This document shows positions 28,783-62,109 of a DNA stretch of 64,000 nt, piece after piece. The notes under the pieces were generated by a model. The model was not told where the DNA came from and made no database searches. It saw only the letters and a list, made by a program, of their open reading frames with translations. The number at the start of each line of letters is the position of its first letter. Position 1 is the stretch's first letter. The DNA comes from an uncultured Bacteroidota bacterium (GTDB lineage: Bacteria; Bacteroidota; Bacteroidia; Flavobacteriales; Flavobacteriaceae), in the NCBI GenBank assembly GCA_902598305.1, contig CACKBL010000005.1:62001-126000 (forward strand), in the 5' to 3' direction. Made by a program: the position numbers and the translations under genes.

Positions 28783-29076
28783 CTAATTTCTTTTTCTTTT
28801 TGATATTTTGTTTAAAGTAATTTGTCTCTGACTATTTGATTTAAATCTTAATTTGTCTCCTGATGACATACTACTATGCTTCGTTGACCTTCCTTGAACT
28901 CTTTTTCTCCACATTTTAAAACTTTTTTCCTTCAGTTCTTTTCTCATCAATTTAATAACATCTTTTTCAGCAATACCAAATTGTTTTTTAATAACATCAA
29001 ACGAAGTTCTATCTTCCCAAGCCATCTCAATGATTCTATCCAGCTCACGGTGACTAAAAACGATTTTATTTTTCAT
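28783..29076 (-). CDS. TIGR03643 family protein, photolyase-associated
   Basis: 97 aa, basic. The start SHRELDRIIEMAWEDRTSFDVIKKQFGIAEKDVIKLMRKELKEKSFKMWRKRVQGRSTKH resembles a helix-turn-helix-like segment followed by a conserved basic stretch, as in the TIGR03643 family. Members are usually found near photolyase or cryptochrome genes. The tail is lysine/arginine-rich. This is the last gene of the minus-strand light-repair group, 29 nt after the photolyase-related gene, and ends convergently 1 nt from murA. A DNA-binding role is plausible but unproven. Confidence 0.82.
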   Translation of the reverse strand: MKNKIVFSHRELDRIIEMAWEDRTSFDVIKKQFGIAEKDVIKLMRKELKEKSFKMWRKRVQGRSTKHSSMSSGDKLRFKSNSQRQITLNKISKRKRN

Positions 29077-29105
29077 TTTTAATTTTAATTAGCATGTATG
29101 AAAAT

Positions 29106-30602
29106 TTAATTATCAGAATTGTCAATTGATAACAAGTAATCTTCTGCACACTTTAGATAGTTTGTTTTTTTTAAAATATCCATTTTGTCAAAGCTTCTTA
29201 CGAGAATTCTCATTCTTGGGTTTTTTTCAAAAAACTCTCTTTTTTTGTCTATAAAATTCCAAAAAAGTGAATCCCAGATGGTACACCAATCTCCTTTTTT
29301 GTAATTACTCATTTTAAGTATATAGTTACTACCGCTTATGTAGGGTTTTGTGGACATAAGGCCTCCATCAGCGAATTGACTCATTCCATAAACGTTTGGA
29401 ACCATTACCCAATCATAGGCATCAATGAATAACTCCATAAACCATTTATAGACTTCGTCCGGGTCAAATTCACATAAAAGCATGAAATTTCCCATTATCA
29501 TAAGCCTTTCAATGTGGTGCGCATATGCTGTAGTATTAATTTTCTTTATTGTGTCGTCAACCGGGTCTATACCAGTATTTCCATCATAAAAAGATTTACT
29601 AATTTTTCTTTTAAAGCCCCAAAAGTTTTTTGTCCTTTCTTCAACCCCTTTGCAAAAGTAAATACCCCTTATAAACTCTCTCCAGCCAATAATTTGTCTT
29701 ATAAACCCTTCACATGAATTAATCATTATATTATTTTTTTGATAAAAATCAATTGACTCCTTAACAATAAATTCAGGTGTGATTAATCCGCTGTTAATTA
29801 GTGGCGAAAGTAAGCTATGATTTAAAAAAGACTCTTCTTTAACAATTGAATCCTCGTATGGGCCAAATTCGTTAAACCTATCTTTAAGAAACTTTAAAAA
29901 CCATAATTTTGCACTTTTGTGATCAGTAGGATAAATAAATTTAACATTGATTAATCCTGGATTTTGACTGTAATTTGTATTAATGAAACTTACAGATTCA
30001 GAAAAAAGTTTATCATCTACATCTGCAAATTCTATTTTAGGCGGATTTTTGTCTTTTGGATATTTTTCCCTATTCATCACATCATATGTCCAATCCCCCC
30101 CTGTTGGTTTTCCGTTTTGTTCGATTAGAATATTAAATTTTTTTCTTTGTGATTTATAGAACGAGGTTTGAAAAAACTTTTTTTTGTCTTTTTTAAAAAA
30201 CTCGTTTAGTTCAGATTTTTTAGTTATAAAACTTGGATTTTCATGAATAATTAGTTGGATTTTATTTTTTTTACAAAAATTTGAAATTCTTTTTTGGATA
30301 TAATAATCATCGGGATCTATTATTTCAATTTTGTTGAGATTAATACATAGATTTTCAAGTAAATTTCTTATGTCAGATTCTGTTTCGGTTGATTCAATAT
30401 ATTTTACTTTTCTGTCGTGCAACTCCAAATAACGCTGATAATTTTTCATCGTAAGCCTGTGGAAAAGTATTTTTTGCTTGTGAAATTTAAATTGATTGAA
30501 AAAAAGAAATTCTTCAACCAAAATAAATTCATTTTGGTTTTTCATTAAGGGAGAATTTTCAAAAAGCTGATTTGGAAATAATATGTTCATATTTTCATTC
30601 AT
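29106..30602 (-). CDS. Photolyase-related protein (PhrB-like cryptochrome/photolyase family)
   Basis: 498 aa, the length of the prokaryotic (6-4) photolyase/cryptochrome group. FAD-domain motifs include CEGFIRQIIGWREFIRGIY, YAHHIERLMIMGNFMLL, DAYDWVMVPNVYGMSQFADGG and STKPYISGSNYI. Well-studied members hold a 4Fe-4S cluster with a C-x2-C pair after the MSDY motif; here MSNYKKGDWCTIWDSLFW shows a deletion at that place and only one cysteine, so the cluster may be absent. It overlaps cryptochrome DASH by 8 nt. It probably repairs (6-4) photoproducts or senses light. Confidence 0.88.
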   Translation of the reverse strand: MNENMNILFPNQLFENSPLMKNQNEFILVEEFLFFNQFKFHKQKILFHRLTMKNYQRYLELHDRKVKYIESTETESDIRNLLENLCINLNKIEIIDPDDYYIQKRISNFCKKNKIQLIIHENPSFITKKSELNEFFKKDKKKFFQTSFYKSQRKKFNILIEQNGKPTGGDWTYDVMNREKYPKDKNPPKIEFADVDDKLFSESVSFINTNYSQNPGLINVKFIYPTDHKSAKLWFLKFLKDRFNEFGPYEDSIVKEESFLNHSLLSPLINSGLITPEFIVKESIDFYQKNNIMINSCEGFIRQIIGWREFIRGIYFCKGVEERTKNFWGFKRKISKSFYDGNTGIDPVDDTIKKINTTAYAHHIERLMIMGNFMLLCEFDPDEVYKWFMELFIDAYDWVMVPNVYGMSQFADGGLMSTKPYISGSNYILKMSNYKKGDWCTIWDSLFWNFIDKKREFFEKNPRMRILVRSFDKMDILKKTNYLKCAEDYLLSIDNSDN

Positions 30603-31896
30603 TTAGCCACAAATTTTGAAATTTCATGTTAGGATCGTATTTTTCTGACTGCCATTTAATGTTGAATTTCCTGTCCCTTGGATCATTTCCAACACCAGAT
30701 ACATACATCCAATTTCCATAATTGCTATGTACATCATAATCTATAAGCATTGATTCGAAATATGAAGCACCGATTCTCCAATCCAATTTTAGTTCCTTTG
30801 CAAAATAACTAGCAACATTTTGTCTTCCCCTATTACTCATCCATCCAGTATTTTTTATTTCCAACATATTTGAATTCACAAATGGTTCTTTTGTTTTTCC
30901 GTTAATCCATTCATATACTTTGGTTTTTGATTTATCCCAATTATATTTTCTGTTCAAAATACCTTCAATACTAAAAATCTTGTCTCTATATTTCATTGAT
31001 ATGTACTTAAAATAGTCTCTCCATATAAGTTCAAATACCAACCAATATGTGGATTGGTTTTTGATTACCTTATTTTCATATTTTTTTATTTCCCAATAAA
31101 TCATTTTTGGGGATACAGAACCGTTTGCTAACCAAGAAGAGAACTTAGAACTATAATCAATTCCAATCAATCCATTTCTAGTATGTTTATAAACAGATAA
31201 CTTTTTTGTTTCCCATAAATAATTATTGATTCTCTCAATACCACTTTTGCCCCCCCCTTTAAATGGGAATGCGCTTCTTTTGTCAAGTTTAAATTCCTTA
31301 AAACCTAAATCATTTAAACTTGGAATTTTGTATTTCTCGGATAGTCTATTCTTTGATTCCAACCTATGCGGATTATCCGCCAAACTCCTAACTTTTAAAT
31401 CTTTTTCACATTTTTTTCTAAATAACGTGAAAACATTGGGGATATCGTCAATTTTTTTTTTCAAATCGTTGGGGTGATATAAAAATTGTTCGAAAGAATA
31501 GTTCACTTTTACATTACTATCAATCTTATTTAAAACTTCTTTTTCTTCATTGATTTCGTCACGAGTCCATTCTCTTTGAATGAAAATTTCCTTGACATTT
31601 AATTTTTTTATCTTTTTTATAAGATTTTGACCATCTGGACAATTGTCAATTATTAAACTAATATTCAACTTATCTAACTCAAGTTGCAAATCATTTACTG
31701 ATTCAATCATAAATTTACTTCTGTAAATACCTGTTTTTTTAAACCCCATATTTAATTCTTTAAATAAATTAGGATTAAAATTGAAATAAGCGACAACTTG
31801 TCTATTGCTATCAATAGCTTTTGAAAGTCCCTGATGATCTCTTATTCTAAGATCGTTTCTATACCAAACTAGAGAAACACCTAACGAGCTCGACAT
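30595..31896 (-). CDS. Cryptochrome DASH
   Basis: 433 aa. N-terminal photolyase alpha/beta domain starts [22 protein letters not shown]; the FAD-binding domain shows [87 protein letters not shown]. This NRGRQN...GVGNDPR.R.FN pattern identifies the DASH class, which repairs cyclobutane dimers in single-stranded DNA or signals blue light. The start overlaps the DUF2256 gene by 16 nt and the end overlaps the next photolyase-related gene. Confidence 0.94.
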
Positions 31897-32015
31897 CTTT
31901 TACTACAGTATTTGACATTATTCCAGTTGTTTTCCCATTTTTTTCTCCAACTAAATGGTCTTTTACAAGCTGGACAAATTTTAGATGGTAAATTTGCTTT
32001 TTTAACACCATTCAT
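31881..32015 (-). CDS. DUF2256 family small zinc-ribbon-like protein
   Basis: 44 aa, too short for the ORF track. The translation begins [20 protein letters not shown] and carries CPAC...YCSKRC, four cysteines suited to bind one metal, with many Arg, Lys and Trp residues. This is the DUF2256 pattern (LPSKxCxxCxRPFxWRKKW...W..VKYCSxxCR). DUF2256 genes are typically found next to photolyases. It starts directly after the CPD photolyase stop (no gap) and overlaps the cryptochrome DASH start by 16 nt, so it is translated within the group. Function is unknown. Confidence 0.88.
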
Positions 32016-33314
32016 TTAAGCAACAGCAGCTTTGAAGGTTTCTAAACATCTATTTCGAGCAAACTTATGATCAATAATTTCTTTAGGGTATAAGCTACTT
32101 TGAAATTCGGGAACCCATTTTTTAATGTATTTAAAATCTTTATCGAATTTTTTAATTTGCTCTTTTGGATTAAAAATCCTAAAATATGGAGAAGCATCTA
32201 CACCACATCCTGCCACCCATTGCCAATTACCTACATTACTAGACATTTCATAGTCTAACAATTTTTTTGCAAAATACTTTTCTCCCCATCTCCAATCAAT
32301 TAATAGATGCTTACAAAGAAAACTTCCAACTAGCATTCTTACCCTATTATGCATAAATCCTGTTTGATTTAATTCTCTCATGCCGGCATCGATTAAAGGA
32401 TAGCCTGTATTTCCCTCACACCATTTTTTAAATTCTTCATAATTATTAAGCCAATTTATATTATCGTATTTAGGTTTAAAGGATTTTTCTTGAGTGTATG
32501 GAAAATGCCATAGTATTTGCATAAAAAACTCCCTCCAAATCAATTCTTTTAAATATGTATTGTTTGAGTATTTAAGTGCTTTCTCCACTAGTTTTCTAAT
32601 ACTTACAAATCCAAATCTCAAGTGAGCACCAATTCTAGAGGTACTATTTAAGTAAGGAAAGTTTCTGGTTTCTTCGTATTTTTCAATTGTTTTGGAATCA
32701 ATATTAAATAATGGAATATCAAATTCTTTTTCATCAAAACCAATTTCTTTTAATGTAAGGTAGGGTAATTCTAGACTAGCTAAAGAAGTTAATTTAGTTT
32801 CAGATTTACAACTTTCAAACCCCGTTGCGTTTAATTTTTCAATCCATTTTCTAGAATAAGGTGTATATACTTTATATGGATTACCATCATCCTTGACCAC
32901 TTCATCTTTTTCAAAAATAACTTGATCTTTGAAAGATTTATAAGTAACGTTTCTTTTTTCTAAAAATGATTTTATTGATTTATCTCTTTCTATAGCATAT
33001 GGCTCGTAATCACGATTTGCAAAAACAGTTTTGATTTTATATTTTCTTAAAAGTGATTCAAAAACGGCCTTAGGATTTCCAAGATACATTCCAACATTAC
33101 ACCTGTTCCCCAACATGGCATCGTTTAATTTAACTAAGGCCGCATGAATCATTTTTATTCTTAAATCGTTTTTTTCGAGTTTATTGATTATCTCAGTGTC
33201 AAAAATAAAGATTGGAATTACCTTTAAACCTGATGAAAGAGCACCATTTAAACCTAGATTATCATCTAATCTTAAATCTCTTCTAAACCAAAAAACTGAA
33301 AAATTTTCTTCCAT
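32016..33314 (-). CDS. phr: Deoxyribodipyrimidine photolyase (CPD class I)
   Basis: 432 aa. Uses FADH- and blue light to split cyclobutane pyrimidine dimers. The start VFWFRRDLRLDDNLGLNGAL is the antenna-domain signature; the FAD domain has RIGAHLRFGFVSIRKLV, LIWREFFMQILWHFPY, NQTGFMHNRVRMLVGSFLCKHLLIDWRWGEKYFAKKLLDYEMSSNVGNWQW. All the usual tryptophans of the electron-transfer chain region are present by eye. It follows the SDR gene with no gap. Confidence 0.94.
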   Translation of the reverse strand: MEENFSVFWFRRDLRLDDNLGLNGALSSGLKVIPIFIFDTEIINKLEKNDLRIKMIHAALVKLNDAMLGNRCNVGMYLGNPKAVFESLLRKYKIKTVFANRDYEPYAIERDKSIKSFLEKRNVTYKSFKDQVIFEKDEVVKDDGNPYKVYTPYSRKWIEKLNATGFESCKSETKLTSLASLELPYLTLKEIGFDEKEFDIPLFNIDSKTIEKYEETRNFPYLNSTSRIGAHLRFGFVSIRKLVEKALKYSNNTYLKELIWREFFMQILWHFPYTQEKSFKPKYDNINWLNNYEEFKKWCEGNTGYPLIDAGMRELNQTGFMHNRVRMLVGSFLCKHLLIDWRWGEKYFAKKLLDYEMSSNVGNWQWVAGCGVDASPYFRIFNPKEQIKKFDKDFKYIKKWVPEFQSSLYPKEIIDHKFARNRCLETFKAAVA

Positions 33315-34010
33315 TTAATTAACTTTAACACTACTTATACCACCGTCAATGTTAATAATTTGACCAGTAATCCACTTTGATTTTTCATCAAGTAAATATT
33401 GAGTAAGCTGAGCAATTTCTTTTGCAGTACCAATCTTATTCAAAGGGTGTCTAGCTGCAGCTTTTTCAATTTTATCTTCAGTGTTTAAAAACTTATTTGC
33501 AAGGGGTGTATCAACTATTGATGGCGCTATGCAATTGACTCTGATTTTTGGAGCGAATTCAGCTGCCAGTGACTTTGTTAATCCTTCTAGTGCAGATTTT
33601 GACGAAGATACCGAAGAATGGAAAGGCATTCCTGTTTTAACAGCAACAGTACTATAAAAGATTATACTTGAGGAAGGACTTTGCTGAAGTCTATTTAAAA
33701 TTATTTGCAATGTTTTTATAGCGCCTATAAGATTTAATTCTAAGTCGCTTCTAAAAGTTTCAAGTTTCAAACTTCTAAAAGGTCTCAGGTTAATTGTACC
33801 TGGGCAATAAACGAAACCATCAATTTGGTTAGGTAACAATCCAGGGTCAAGATCGTCTTCAAGAACATCGTATTTTATGTGTCTAATATTCTCATTAGAT
33901 TCATTTAATTCATTTCTCGAGGTTGAAAAAACAATGTTTTCTTTTGACAACAGTTCCGAAATTTCTTTTCCAATTCCTGAAGAACCTCCAATAATTAAAT
34001 AATTTTTCAT
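33315..34010 (-). CDS. Short-chain dehydrogenase, photolyase-linked
   Basis: 231 aa Rossmann-fold protein. The NAD(P) loop is GGSSGIGKEI, the catalytic serine lies in FYSTVAV, and the YxxxK tyrosine position is occupied by FHSSVSSSKSALEG, i.e. S-x-x-x-K in place of Y-x-x-x-K. The loss of the catalytic tyrosine suggests altered or no dehydrogenase activity. It overlaps the START-like gene by 4 nt and abuts the photolyase. Such SDRs recur beside photolyases in marine Bacteroidota; their substrate is unknown. Confidence 0.86.
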   Translation of the reverse strand: MKNYLIIGGSSGIGKEISELLSKENIVFSTSRNELNESNENIRHIKYDVLEDDLDPGLLPNQIDGFVYCPGTINLRPFRSLKLETFRSDLELNLIGAIKTLQIILNRLQQSPSSSIIFYSTVAVKTGMPFHSSVSSSKSALEGLTKSLAAEFAPKIRVNCIAPSIVDTPLANKFLNTEDKIEKAAARHPLNKIGTAKEIAQLTQYLLDEKSKWITGQIINIDGGISSVKVN

Positions 34011-34471
34011 TTATTTATATTTCCAAATTTATTTTCGAGTACCTTATATCTGTAATCAAAAATTTGATTTAATTTTTTTTTAATAAAAAGAGGATGAGCC
34101 ATTCTGCCGAGTATACCAAAAGGCAGCCTGTAATCTACAATATCGATCATTTCAACTCCGTCTTTAATTTTGTTAAAAAAATGTTTGTGATGCCAAAGCT
34201 TATAAGGTCCATATCTTTGTTCGTCAACGAAATATGTTTCTTTTTCAACATGGGTGATTTCAGTCACCCATCTTAAAGGTATCCCAAAGAGAGGTTTGAC
34301 AATGTATTTTATAATTTGACCAGGAAACATATCTTTATCTGCACCTTCTAAAATTTTAAAACCCATGTAGATTGGTGTTATTTCTTTTAAATTAGAGGGA
34401 TTAGAAAAGAAATTCCAAGCTTCTTTAATGCTAATGGGTAAATGTTGAATCCTTTTAAGTCTATATACCAT
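34007..34471 (-). CDS. SRPBCC/START-like ligand-binding protein, first gene of the photolyase group
   Basis: 154 aa. I start at MVYRLKRIQHLPISIKEAWNFFSNP (34471), three residues inside the track ORF, because the promoter lies directly upstream. This N-terminal pattern with NLKEITPIYMGFKI and the C-terminal GRMAHPLFIKKKLNQIFDYRYKVLE is that of the SRPBCC group sometimes labelled cell division inhibitor SulA-like. A hydrophobic ligand pocket is expected. It overlaps the SDR by 4 nt, so the pair is coupled. Confidence 0.84.
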   Translation of the reverse strand: MVYRLKRIQHLPISIKEAWNFFSNPSNLKEITPIYMGFKILEGADKDMFPGQIIKYIVKPLFGIPLRWVTEITHVEKETYFVDEQRYGPYKLWHHKHFFNKIKDGVEMIDIVDYRLPFGILGRMAHPLFIKKKLNQIFDYRYKVLENKFGNINK

Positions 34472-34477
34472 GGAGAG

Positions 34478-34507
34478 CAAAAATATAAAATGTTTAATAA
34501 ATTCAAA
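34478..34507 (-). promoter_or_regulatory. Promoter of the photolyase group (TTTG-N18-TATTTTTG)
   Basis: On the minus strand TTTG and TATTTTTG are separated by exactly 18 nt, a full match to the Bacteroidota housekeeping promoter. The element ends 6 nt before the ATG at 34471, predicting a leader of about 2 nt. I see no operator-like inverted repeat overlapping it. Confidence 0.7.
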
Positions 34508-34576: not shown

Positions 34577-35407
34577 ATGAATCTAAGATCTTTCTCATTT
34601 GCTTTTTTAATTTATTCAGTTGTCTTTTCTCAAGTACAGACTCCTGCACTCAGTCCTAAATCAGAATTAACCCAAATAGTTGGCTTTACTGAGGTGAAAA
34701 TTGAATTTTCTAGACCATCAATGCGTGGTAGAAAAATCATGGGAAATTTGGTCAATTATGGAGATATCTGGCGAACAGGAGCTAATAGTAACACAAAAAT
34801 CACAATTAATGATAATCTTATGTTTGGTGAAAATATTCTTCCTGCTGGCACTTATTCCATTTTGACTAGACCTGGAAAAAAAATGTGGGAAGTGTTCTTT
34901 TATACTGAAGACTGGTCCTTACCAAAAGCTTGGGATCCTGAAAAAATCGCTCTTAAATTAGATATACCAGTAAAAAACGCTAATCAGATCGAAACATTTT
35001 CAATTTGGATAGGTGATATTTCAACTGATTCAGCTTCACTAAACTTAGCATGGGAAAATTCTAGAATTGAAATGCCTTTTACCGTATCTACTGATGAAAA
35101 AACCATGGCATCTATAAAAGAAACTATGAAAGGTAATCCTGGACACAGAGACTATTATAGTGCCGCCTCATATTATTTAACTACAGGTAGAGACTTAAAG
35201 AAAGCTGAAAAGTGGATAATAAAGGCTGTGAAGGAAAAAGAATACTACTTTTACTATAGAACTAAAGCTGAAATTCACGCAGGGTTAGAGAAGTTTAAGT
35301 CGGCTATAGAAGCAGCAAATAAATCTATCAAACTTGCAGAAAAAAGAGGTACAAAAAACTTAATTAGTTTAAATAAAAAATCTATTGAAGAGTGGAGTAG
35401 AAGGTAA
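34577..35407 (+). CDS. DUF2911 secreted protein
   Basis: 276 aa. A signal peptide (SFAFLIYSVVFSQVQ) leads into the DUF2911 domain: LSPKSELTQIVGFTEVKIEFSRPSMRGRKIMG, WRTGANSNTKI, and LPAGTYSILTRPGKKMWEVFF. The last about 90 residues add TPR-like helices (DYYSAASYYLTTGRDLKKAEKWIIKAVKE). Function is unknown; family members are exported proteins of Bacteroidota. It is divergent from the photolyase group. Confidence 0.88.
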   Translation: MNLRSFSFAFLIYSVVFSQVQTPALSPKSELTQIVGFTEVKIEFSRPSMRGRKIMGNLVNYGDIWRTGANSNTKITINDNLMFGENILPAGTYSILTRPGKKMWEVFFYTEDWSLPKAWDPEKIALKLDIPVKNANQIETFSIWIGDISTDSASLNLAWENSRIEMPFTVSTDEKTMASIKETMKGNPGHRDYYSAASYYLTTGRDLKKAEKWIIKAVKEKEYYFYYRTKAEIHAGLEKFKSAIEAANKSIKLAEKRGTKNLISLNKKSIEEWSRR

Positions 35408-60678: not shown

Positions 60679-62109
60679 ATGGTAAACATGAAAAATATAT
60701 ATAAAATTTTAGTTTTCTTTTCATTGATTTTGATAGCACATTCATGTGAGGATATCGTAGAAGGAATTAATGAAAACCCAAATGATTTGACTCTTTCAGA
60801 TGTTGAAGAGCGATTATTTTTAACTGGCGGTGAGTTAGCAAACATTCAACTTCAATGTGGTCATTTAAACCGTGTTAGTGGAATGTATTCTGGACAACTT
60901 ATTGGTTTTGCAGCATTATACTCAAATATTTATGGATATAATTTATCTACTGGAGAAGCAAATGATGAATGGAGACACTTATATGTTGGTGTAACAACTA
61001 ACATGCGATACATTATTGAAAATTCAGATAGTGAACTTCTTCGAGGCATTGCGATGATTATTGAAGGACATGCTTATGGAACTGGTGCATCTCTTTGGGG
61101 TGATATTCCATATTCTGAGGCAGGAAATTCTGAAATTGAGGATCCAGTTTTTGATCCACAAGTTCAAGTTTATGCACAGGCCATAGCAAGACTAGATGAA
61201 GGAATAGCAACACTTGGTAGTGCTCCTGCTGGCCAGATTCCAGAAGATATTTTATTCGGTGGTGATAAAGCTAAATGGATTGCCGCTGCAAATACATTAA
61301 AAGCAAGATTTTATCTTCATCAAAAAGACTACTCTAATGCATTGACAGCCGCTCAAAGTGGTATTTCTAATGCTAGTGGTGATATGAGATACAGACCAGG
61401 GAGTTCTGTTTCTGGAGATACAAATCTTTTCTGGACTATCCTTGCTGGATCAAGAGCAGGAGATTTAGGTAATAACTCTGATGACGGAACAGAAAGTTAT
61501 TTACTACAAATCTTGGATGCTACTAACGCTTTGTCTAGAAATCATGCAAAAACAGACGAAACAGCTCGAAGAGCGTATTATATGATTGACGCTTCTGGTA
61601 CAAGTAATGCAGGAATTATTGAAGAACGTGAGCCTCAAAATATGGTAACTTATTTTGAAAATAAACTCATTATGGCTGAAGCTGCAGGTAGGTCTGGTGG
61701 TGTTGCTGCTGGTCTTCCACATTTAAACGATGTTCGTGCTTGGCTTAACAGTGGTGGTCATCTTAATTCCAGCTTTTCTGGATTAACCTACAATTATGAG
61801 CCTTTTGTAGCGGCAGATTTCGATTCTGGTGGAATTGAAAATGCTGATGGTATTAGCGCTGACAGTGCTTTTCTTCGTGAGGTTATGGAGGAACGTTACG
61901 TGTCAGGCTTCGGAATGCATATGCCTTACAATGACGCACGAAGGTTACGTAAGTCAGATAGTGCAATTGCTGTTCCTTATATAATGGTTGATGCAGACAA
62001 TACCCGTAAGCCTGAAAGAATGCCTTACGCACAAAATGAATTAAATTCAAATTCAAATGCACCAGCTGAAGATCCTGGTATTTTTGTAAAAACACCTGTT
62101 AATCAATAG
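60679..62109 (+). CDS. susD: SusD/RagB-family glycan-binding lipoprotein
   Basis: 476 aa. The signal ends ILIAHSCEDIVEG (lipobox). N-terminal NENPNDLTLSDVEERLFLTGGELANIQLQ and helical pairs such as GHAYGTGASLWGDIPYSEA and WIAAANTLKARFYLHQKDYSNALTAAQSGI give the TPR-like SusD fold. It caps the SusC barrel and binds the glycan. Start may be MVNMKN (60679) or MKN (60688). A strong terminator follows 9 nt after the stop. Confidence 0.94.
   Translation: MVNMKNIYKILVFFSLILIAHSCEDIVEGINENPNDLTLSDVEERLFLTGGELANIQLQCGHLNRVSGMYSGQLIGFAALYSNIYGYNLSTGEANDEWRHLYVGVTTNMRYIIENSDSELLRGIAMIIEGHAYGTGASLWGDIPYSEAGNSEIEDPVFDPQVQVYAQAIARLDEGIATLGSAPAGQIPEDILFGGDKAKWIAAANTLKARFYLHQKDYSNALTAAQSGISNASGDMRYRPGSSVSGDTNLFWTILAGSRAGDLGNNSDDGTESYLLQILDATNALSRNHAKTDETARRAYYMIDASGTSNAGIIEEREPQNMVTYFENKLIMAEAAGRSGGVAAGLPHLNDVRAWLNSGGHLNSSFSGLTYNYEPFVAADFDSGGIENADGISADSAFLREVMEERYVSGFGMHMPYNDARRLRKSDSAIAVPYIMVDADNTRKPERMPYAQNELNSNSNAPAEDPGIFVKTPVNQ

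Follow-up and report, generated by a model that had tools for sequence, protein, structure and literature searches.

Photolyases are usually treated as single, self-sufficient enzymes. A photolyase-related proximity gene cluster, enriched in proteorhodopsin-bearing marine Flavobacteriia, has been described (PMC5932025), as has a light-induced Pseudomonas regulon that unites phrB and cryB with folE, folX, and folM (PMC9758184). Prokaryotic (6-4) photolyases that are free of the iron-sulfur (Fe-S) cluster are already known as subgroup M, which includes PromaPL (PMC9178010, PMC9426592), and expression in E. coli has yielded Agrobacterium PhrB and Synechococcus SePhrB that carry FAD as well as an Fe-S cluster (PMC3204975, PMC9178010). 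DUF2256 is among the families listed for the metal-binding TRASH clan (PMC4047054). The locus analyzed here is a seven-gene cassette on the minus strand of a 64,000-nucleotide stretch of DNA (the window; positions 62,001 to 126,000 of contig CACKBL010000005.1) from an uncultured member of the Flavobacteriaceae. It occupies window positions 28783 to 34471 and encodes an SRPBCC-like protein, an SDR-like protein, a cyclobutane pyrimidine dimer (CPD) photolyase, a DUF2256 protein, a DASH-type cryptochrome, a (6-4) photolyase of family PF04244, and a TIGR03643/DUF2805 protein. In a survey of 367 genomes (118 Bacteroidota and 249 Pseudomonadota), we find that DUF2256 tracks the PF04244 (6-4) photolyase and not photolyases in general.

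Distribution of DUF2256 and TIGR03643 relative to the (6-4) photolyase

The DUF2256 protein of the window matches PF10013 at 76.4 bits (cutoff, 25) and has the zinc ligands CxxC and CSxxC. Counting robust matches and setting aside two further weak ones, DUF2256 is present in 33 of the 118 Bacteroidota and PF04244 is present in 34, with 32 genomes shared by both (P = 2e-25), and the link is still seen when only photolyase-positive genomes are considered (P = 5e-15). Among the 249 Pseudomonadota, 68 have DUF2256, 69 have PF04244, and 59 have both, which is an odds ratio of 112 (P = 1e-36). The two genes lie within 5 kb of each other in 34 of these 59 pairs and are >20 kb apart or on separate contigs in 21. 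A scan of 80 DUF2256 loci found PF04244 in the fetched stretch of 37 and elsewhere in the genome for 36 of the 43 others, for a total of 73 of 80. When genomes were shuffled within families, a procedure restricted to listed genomes and to families that showed variation, 20 shared genomes were observed versus 10.7 expected, and none of 200,000 shuffles reached 20; relatedness as the cause of the link is reduced by this result but still not removed. Caulobacter vibrioides and Synechococcus elongatus also have both DUF2256 and PF04244. A preliminary description of this DNA, made from its sequence, had linked DUF2256 and TIGR03643 to photolyases and had proposed a co-occurrence check over many genomes. 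That check bears out the link far beyond the window, for both small proteins and in both phyla, even where the genes are unlinked, and narrows it to PF04244.

The PF04244 protein of the window scores 164 bits against its family (cutoff, 22.1) and 27.2 bits against PF03441 (cutoff, 27), and it aligns with Agrobacterium PhrB over ~450 residues (E = 4e-72 for 4dja and 3e-72 for 5kcm). The HH motif of PhrB is kept (YAHHIERLMI in the window versus YAHHIQRLMI). All four cysteines that would ligate the Fe-S cluster are absent, and the CxxC loop is deleted, which places the protein outside the FeS-BCP subtype. Among 86 distinct sequences that we gathered, 54 have all four cysteines, 31 have none, and 1 has an incomplete set. 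The two types fall on opposite sides of one branch with a support of 100 in a tree of these sequences, which was midpoint rooted and built by a quick search and is silent on which Fe-S state came first. We conclude that the window protein is a prokaryotic (6-4) photolyase of the Fe-S-free clade, for which repair activity is predicted. In the Bacteroidota sample, DUF2256 accompanies 11 of 12 Fe-S-free (6-4) photolyases and 18 of 19 of the Fe-S type. Since it is retained in 11 of 12 genomes with an Fe-S-free enzyme, DUF2256 is not an Fe-S factor, and a role in Fe-S assembly was ruled out.

The window TIGR03643 protein scores 111.4 bits (cutoff, 66.55). PF04244 is found in 28 of 32 Bacteroidota with a high-scoring TIGR03643 copy and in 23 of 24 Pseudomonadota with DUF2805 (P = 1e-13). 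Thus, the claim that TIGR03643 occurs near photolyases holds at the level of shared genomes, but the gene is often not adjacent to them and also occurs in large phages. We found it in 79 IMG/VR contigs (54 distinct proteins), and because it is present in such phage-type contigs, its role cannot be tied to photolyases alone. These contigs (L336 to L414) are large, up to 380 kb, and low in GC, and they almost never have a photolyase within 4 kb of TIGR03643. A flavodoxin-like NAD(P)H reductase gene (PF02525) is near TIGR03643 in 32 of the 79, often directly adjacent, and the few contigs examined carry phage-type endolysin, tail-fiber, exonuclease, or thymidylate synthase genes. INPHARED phage records, in contrast to the IMG/VR contigs, gave no match to DUF2256 or TIGR03643.

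Several other settings of the small genes were seen in the survey. On an Acinetobacter nosocomialis plasmid (L133/L299), DUF2256 and TIGR03643 are adjacent and convergent with no photolyase annotated in 50 kb, and a dozen Acinetobacter records give similar TIGR03643 plasmid matches. In sphingomonads (L124 and L185), DUF2256 directly follows aroK-aroB (shikimate kinase and 3-dehydroquinate synthase). A Psychrobacter genome without a PF04244 match has a second, divergent DUF2256 paralogue (L176:7589-7747) beside the normal copy. Long open frames in six genomes were considered as DUF2256 fusions and rejected, as they have no partner domain; in each, DUF2256 ends a long GC-rich frame and has its own likely start. 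A search of the open-access literature found no functional paper on DUF2256, TIGR03643, or DUF2805, although absence there is not absence from the literature.

Organization of the cassette and its SDR gene

The features of the cassette are collected in Table 1. All seven genes of the preliminary description are present with the identities it gave them, and their junctions, from the SRPBCC gene onwards, are -4, 0, 0, -16, -8, and +29 nucleotides (nt). The 16-nt overlap of the DASH cryptochrome start with DUF2256 has similar counterparts in Polaribacter and related loci. Three photolyase/cryptochrome paralogs do stand in one unit, and the search of the genome (88% complete, 1.8 Mb in 26 contigs) found no other PF03441 gene. 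The CPD photolyase has the general photolyase domains PF00875 and PF03441, and its score against the 8-HDF type model TIGR03556 (345.7 bits) is far below the cutoff of 884.6; the DASH cryptochrome scores 472.9 bits against TIGR02765, above the cutoff of 317.05. The arrangement is not due to chance, since cassettes of a related kind are also present in Polaribacter, Winogradskyella, Aureisphaera, and others.

Table 1. Features of the light-repair cassette (window coordinates)
Feature	Position	Strand	Characteristics
Promoter-like site, Bacteroidota type	34478..34507	-	TTTG-N18-TATTTTTG, immediately ahead of ATG at 34471
SRPBCC-like ligand-binding protein, 154 aa	34007..34471	-	ATG start; sub-threshold PF03364 (Polyketide_cyc) match
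Photolyase-linked SDR	33315..34010	-	Rossmann motif; Val in place of the catalytic Tyr; His at Lys-7
CPD photolyase, class I-like, 432 aa	32016..33314	-	PF00875 + PF03441; TIGR03556 346 bits, under curated cutoff
DUF2256 zinc-ribbon protein, 44 aa	31881..32015	-	PF10013 76 bits; CxxC...CSxRC, WRKKW core
DASH-type cryptochrome	30595..31896	-	TIGR02765 473 bits; start ATG 31896 or GTG 31880
Prokaryotic (6-4) photolyase (PF04244), Fe-S-free clade; activity predicted	29106..30602	-	PhrB 4dja/5kcm matches; HH motif kept
TIGR03643/DUF2805 (PF10985) protein, 97 aa	28783..29076	-	TIGR03643 111 bits; predicted helix-turn-helix-like core, basic tail

The site upstream of the SRPBCC gene was scored against the Bacteroidota promoter consensus. 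A single consensus promoter had been proposed for the unit, and a matching site does stand before the first ATG, but the motif occurs 5 times in the window versus 5.1 expected and is no rarer than chance. It is the placement of the site, and not the rarity of its motif, that carries weight, and this is suggestive only. A sigma-70 promoter scan gave no enrichment, a terminator scan found none, RNA folding at the 3' end showed nothing special, and an Rfam scan of the window returned only RNase P and tRNAs.

The cassette is flanked by a DUF2911 gene (window 34577-35407), and 3 of the 80 DUF2256 loci have a similar gene (e.g., L192:338-1180). Larger flavobacterial cassettes (L139, L162, L173, L198, and others) add an AarF/ABC1 kinase, a TetR_C_23 regulator, a flavin reductase, and a DUF2867 epimerase-like protein, along with a glutathione peroxidase and TspO, both of these identified by sequence alone. 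In the large cassettes of L139 (12499-12924) and nine other Flavobacteria loci, TIGR03643 is directly preceded by a member of a 142-amino-acid family without a Pfam match.

The SDR has the nucleotide-binding motif GxxxGxG (as GGSSGIG) but lacks the catalytic YxxxK. We defined the photolyase-linked SDR subfamily as only those sequences scoring >180 bits with the A3 profile, the SDR homologues of the first 80-locus survey being a mix of several subfamilies. In all 44 members, the Tyr is replaced by Val or Ile, while the Ser, the Lys, and a His at Lys-7, three residues before the Tyr position, are invariant. The subfamily is present in 24 to 25 of the 118 Bacteroidota, usually near DUF2805, the CPD photolyase, or SRPBCC, and in 4 of the 249 Pseudomonadota, in all four within ~1.1 kb of DUF2256. 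A Vibrio SDR beside DUF2256 was rejected as a member, as it reads as a classical YxxxK protein. SRPBCC orthologues stand beside the same SDR and the CPD photolyase at five loci (G103, G107, G053, G084, and L175). PTPS, FolE (GTP cyclohydrolase I), and the SDR are contiguous, with the SDR last, in two genomes (G076 and G111), and FolE is near the SDR in Polaribacter and relatives. These neighborhoods have a parallel in the light-induced folE, folX, and folM genes of Pseudomonas (PMC9758184). The preliminary description had the SDR and SRPBCC proteins as a possible pigment or cofactor arm; the neighbors of the orthologues make the SDR look pterin linked, and for the window organism this link would hold by analogy, since FolE and PTPS are absent from the window.

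Possible roles of the helper proteins

What we show are the operon, the families, a strong co-occurrence, the residue losses, and the gene neighbors; each biochemical step of the helpers is inferred. Our tentative preference, held at somewhat less than even confidence, is for a light-repair unit whose genes are expressed together: DUF2256 would partner the (6-4) photolyase in vivo, TIGR03643 would act as an accessory that binds DNA, and the SDR and SRPBCC proteins would form a pterin arm. The CPD photolyase, the DASH cryptochrome, and the Fe-S-free (6-4) photolyase, co-expressed with these helpers, would make up complete light-dependent DNA repair. Since the small proteins nearly always accompany the (6-4) photolyase family, this enzyme probably has helpers. 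DUF2256, a tiny TRASH-clan zinc ribbon, would most likely be its dedicated in vivo partner, docking either on the photolyase itself or, at the lesion, on DNA or a different protein, and would not build the enzyme. TIGR03643, with its helix-turn-helix-like core, would most likely be a DNA-binding accessory serving the same photolyase family. The SDR, whose orthologues are neighbors of GTP cyclohydrolase I and PTPS, would most likely, with SRPBCC as carrier or cyclase, supply or recycle reduced pterin for use as an antenna or a reductant, through a reaction that dispenses with the usual SDR tyrosine.

We regard as unlikely the wider proposal that prokaryotic (6-4) photolyases are multipart systems in the cell, with DUF2256 as a near-obligate partner for recruitment or lesion handover, TIGR03643 as a second DNA-binding partner, and the Tyr-less SDR supplying pterin by an unusual mechanism. 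If the two small proteins are required for (6-4) repair in cells, photoreactivation across much of the sunlit ocean relies on proteins that have never been assayed, and the Tyr-less SDR would represent new chemistry, or a new sensor, in one of the largest enzyme superfamilies.

Several observations weigh against the co-expressed unit with dedicated helpers. Co-occurrence does not show contact, and recombinant (6-4) photolyases are obtained cofactor loaded from E. coli (PMC3204975, PMC9178010), which means that a partner is no strict requirement in vitro. DUF2256 occurs without PF04244 in nine Pseudomonadota genomes, Acinetobacter plasmids pair it with TIGR03643 with no annotated photolyase nearby, and many large phages have TIGR03643 but no photolyase within 4 kb of it. 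Neither the DUF2256 model nor the TIGR03643 model has a significant match in a PDB fold search, and a sequence search of solved structures with both proteins gave nothing significant. The pterin arm is argued from neighbors only, and FolE and PTPS were not found in the window.

The preliminary description had suggested that the accessory proteins mature or load a chromophore, and in this alternative DUF2256, TIGR03643, the SDR, and SRPBCC would synthesize, transport, or install FAD, an antenna (lumazine or pterin), or the Fe-S cluster. The tight operon overlap, the FolE and PTPS neighbors of the SDR, and the flavin reductase of related cassettes all speak for it. However, DUF2256 is kept with Fe-S-free enzymes, and photolyases carried their cofactors when expressed in E. 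coli (PMC3204975, PMC9178010), whose genome, included as a control, has no DUF2256 match. These two facts weaken the claim for DUF2256 and mean that maturation suits the SDR arm better; as an account of all four proteins, we consider it rather improbable. It is decidedly improbable that the link comes from nothing more than a common sunlit lifestyle, or from horizontal transfer of the genes together, with no functional contact: the small genes do have plasmid copies, but the link survives in photolyase-positive genomes only, within families, and for unlinked genes.

Structure models bear on two further proposals. The AlphaFold2 model of TIGR03643 has a predicted local distance difference test score (pLDDT) of >90 in blocks of residues 11 to 60 and a tail that is not confident. 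Its core (approximately residues 9 to 60) is modeled as a short helical bundle of the helix-turn-helix type, and the best PDB match has an E value of 0.8, with helix-turn-helix proteins frequent among these weak, nonsignificant matches. The earlier view that the unit has no visible regulator may therefore be wrong. A transcription regulator of the repair genes would fit this predicted core, the basic tail, and weak structural matches that are often to sigma-factor region 4 and repressor domains. On the other hand, the core residues hardly vary between distant phyla and phages, which is odd for regulators with differing operators, and the gene stands at the end of this operon and elsewhere is frequently unlinked, so we consider a regulator, as opposed to a repair accessory, quite doubtful.

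DUF2256, modeled with a pLDDT of 83.5, has as its best Foldseek neighbor 4tma, a complex of YacG with gyrase (E = 0.27, probability 0.87; not significant), and four of its top five matches are YacG chains of this structure. It also resembles an FCS zinc finger, again without significance. In hhalign, all four Cys residues align with those of E. coli YacG (DUF329) at an E value of 4e-4, with a probability of 36%. A YacG-like DUF2256 might bind gyrase or another DNA-processing machine and pause it at sites of UV damage during photolyase action. Given that the structural match is not significant, that DUF2256 has no counterpart of YacG's C-terminal extension, and that the specific tracking of the (6-4) photolyase is left unexplained, this seems to us a slim prospect.

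Comparison with described systems

The marine Flavobacteriia photolyase cluster and Fe-S-free relatives of the (6-4) photolyase were already known. New here are the ties of DUF2256 and of TIGR03643 to PF04244, the retention of DUF2256 with the Fe-S-free clade, and the Tyr-less SDR subfamily. The window cassette is very probably included in the cluster of PMC5932025, although DUF2256, TIGR03643, the SDR, and a tie to the (6-4) photolyase are not named in the accessible part of that source. The (6-4) photolyase resembles the FeS-BCP enzymes PhrB and CryB in its long alignment with PhrB and its HH motif but differs from them in its lost Fe-S ligands and deleted CxxC loop. It shares the PF04244 family and the loss of the four cysteines with subgroup M and PromaPL (PMC9178010, PMC9426592); the window protein is a Bacteroidota member, and our tree of 86 contains no PromaPL sequence. 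DUF2256 and the gyrase inhibitor YacG, also of the TRASH clan, are both small CxxC...CSxRC zinc ribbons, but YacG has a longer C-terminal tail, and the structural likeness is not significant. The LitR/PplR regulon of Pseudomonas likewise brings together a photolyase, a cryptochrome, an SDR, and folE, folX, and folM, light induced to differing degrees, but under another regulator and with another gene set, in which the accessible part of PMC9758184 does not name DUF2256 or TIGR03643.

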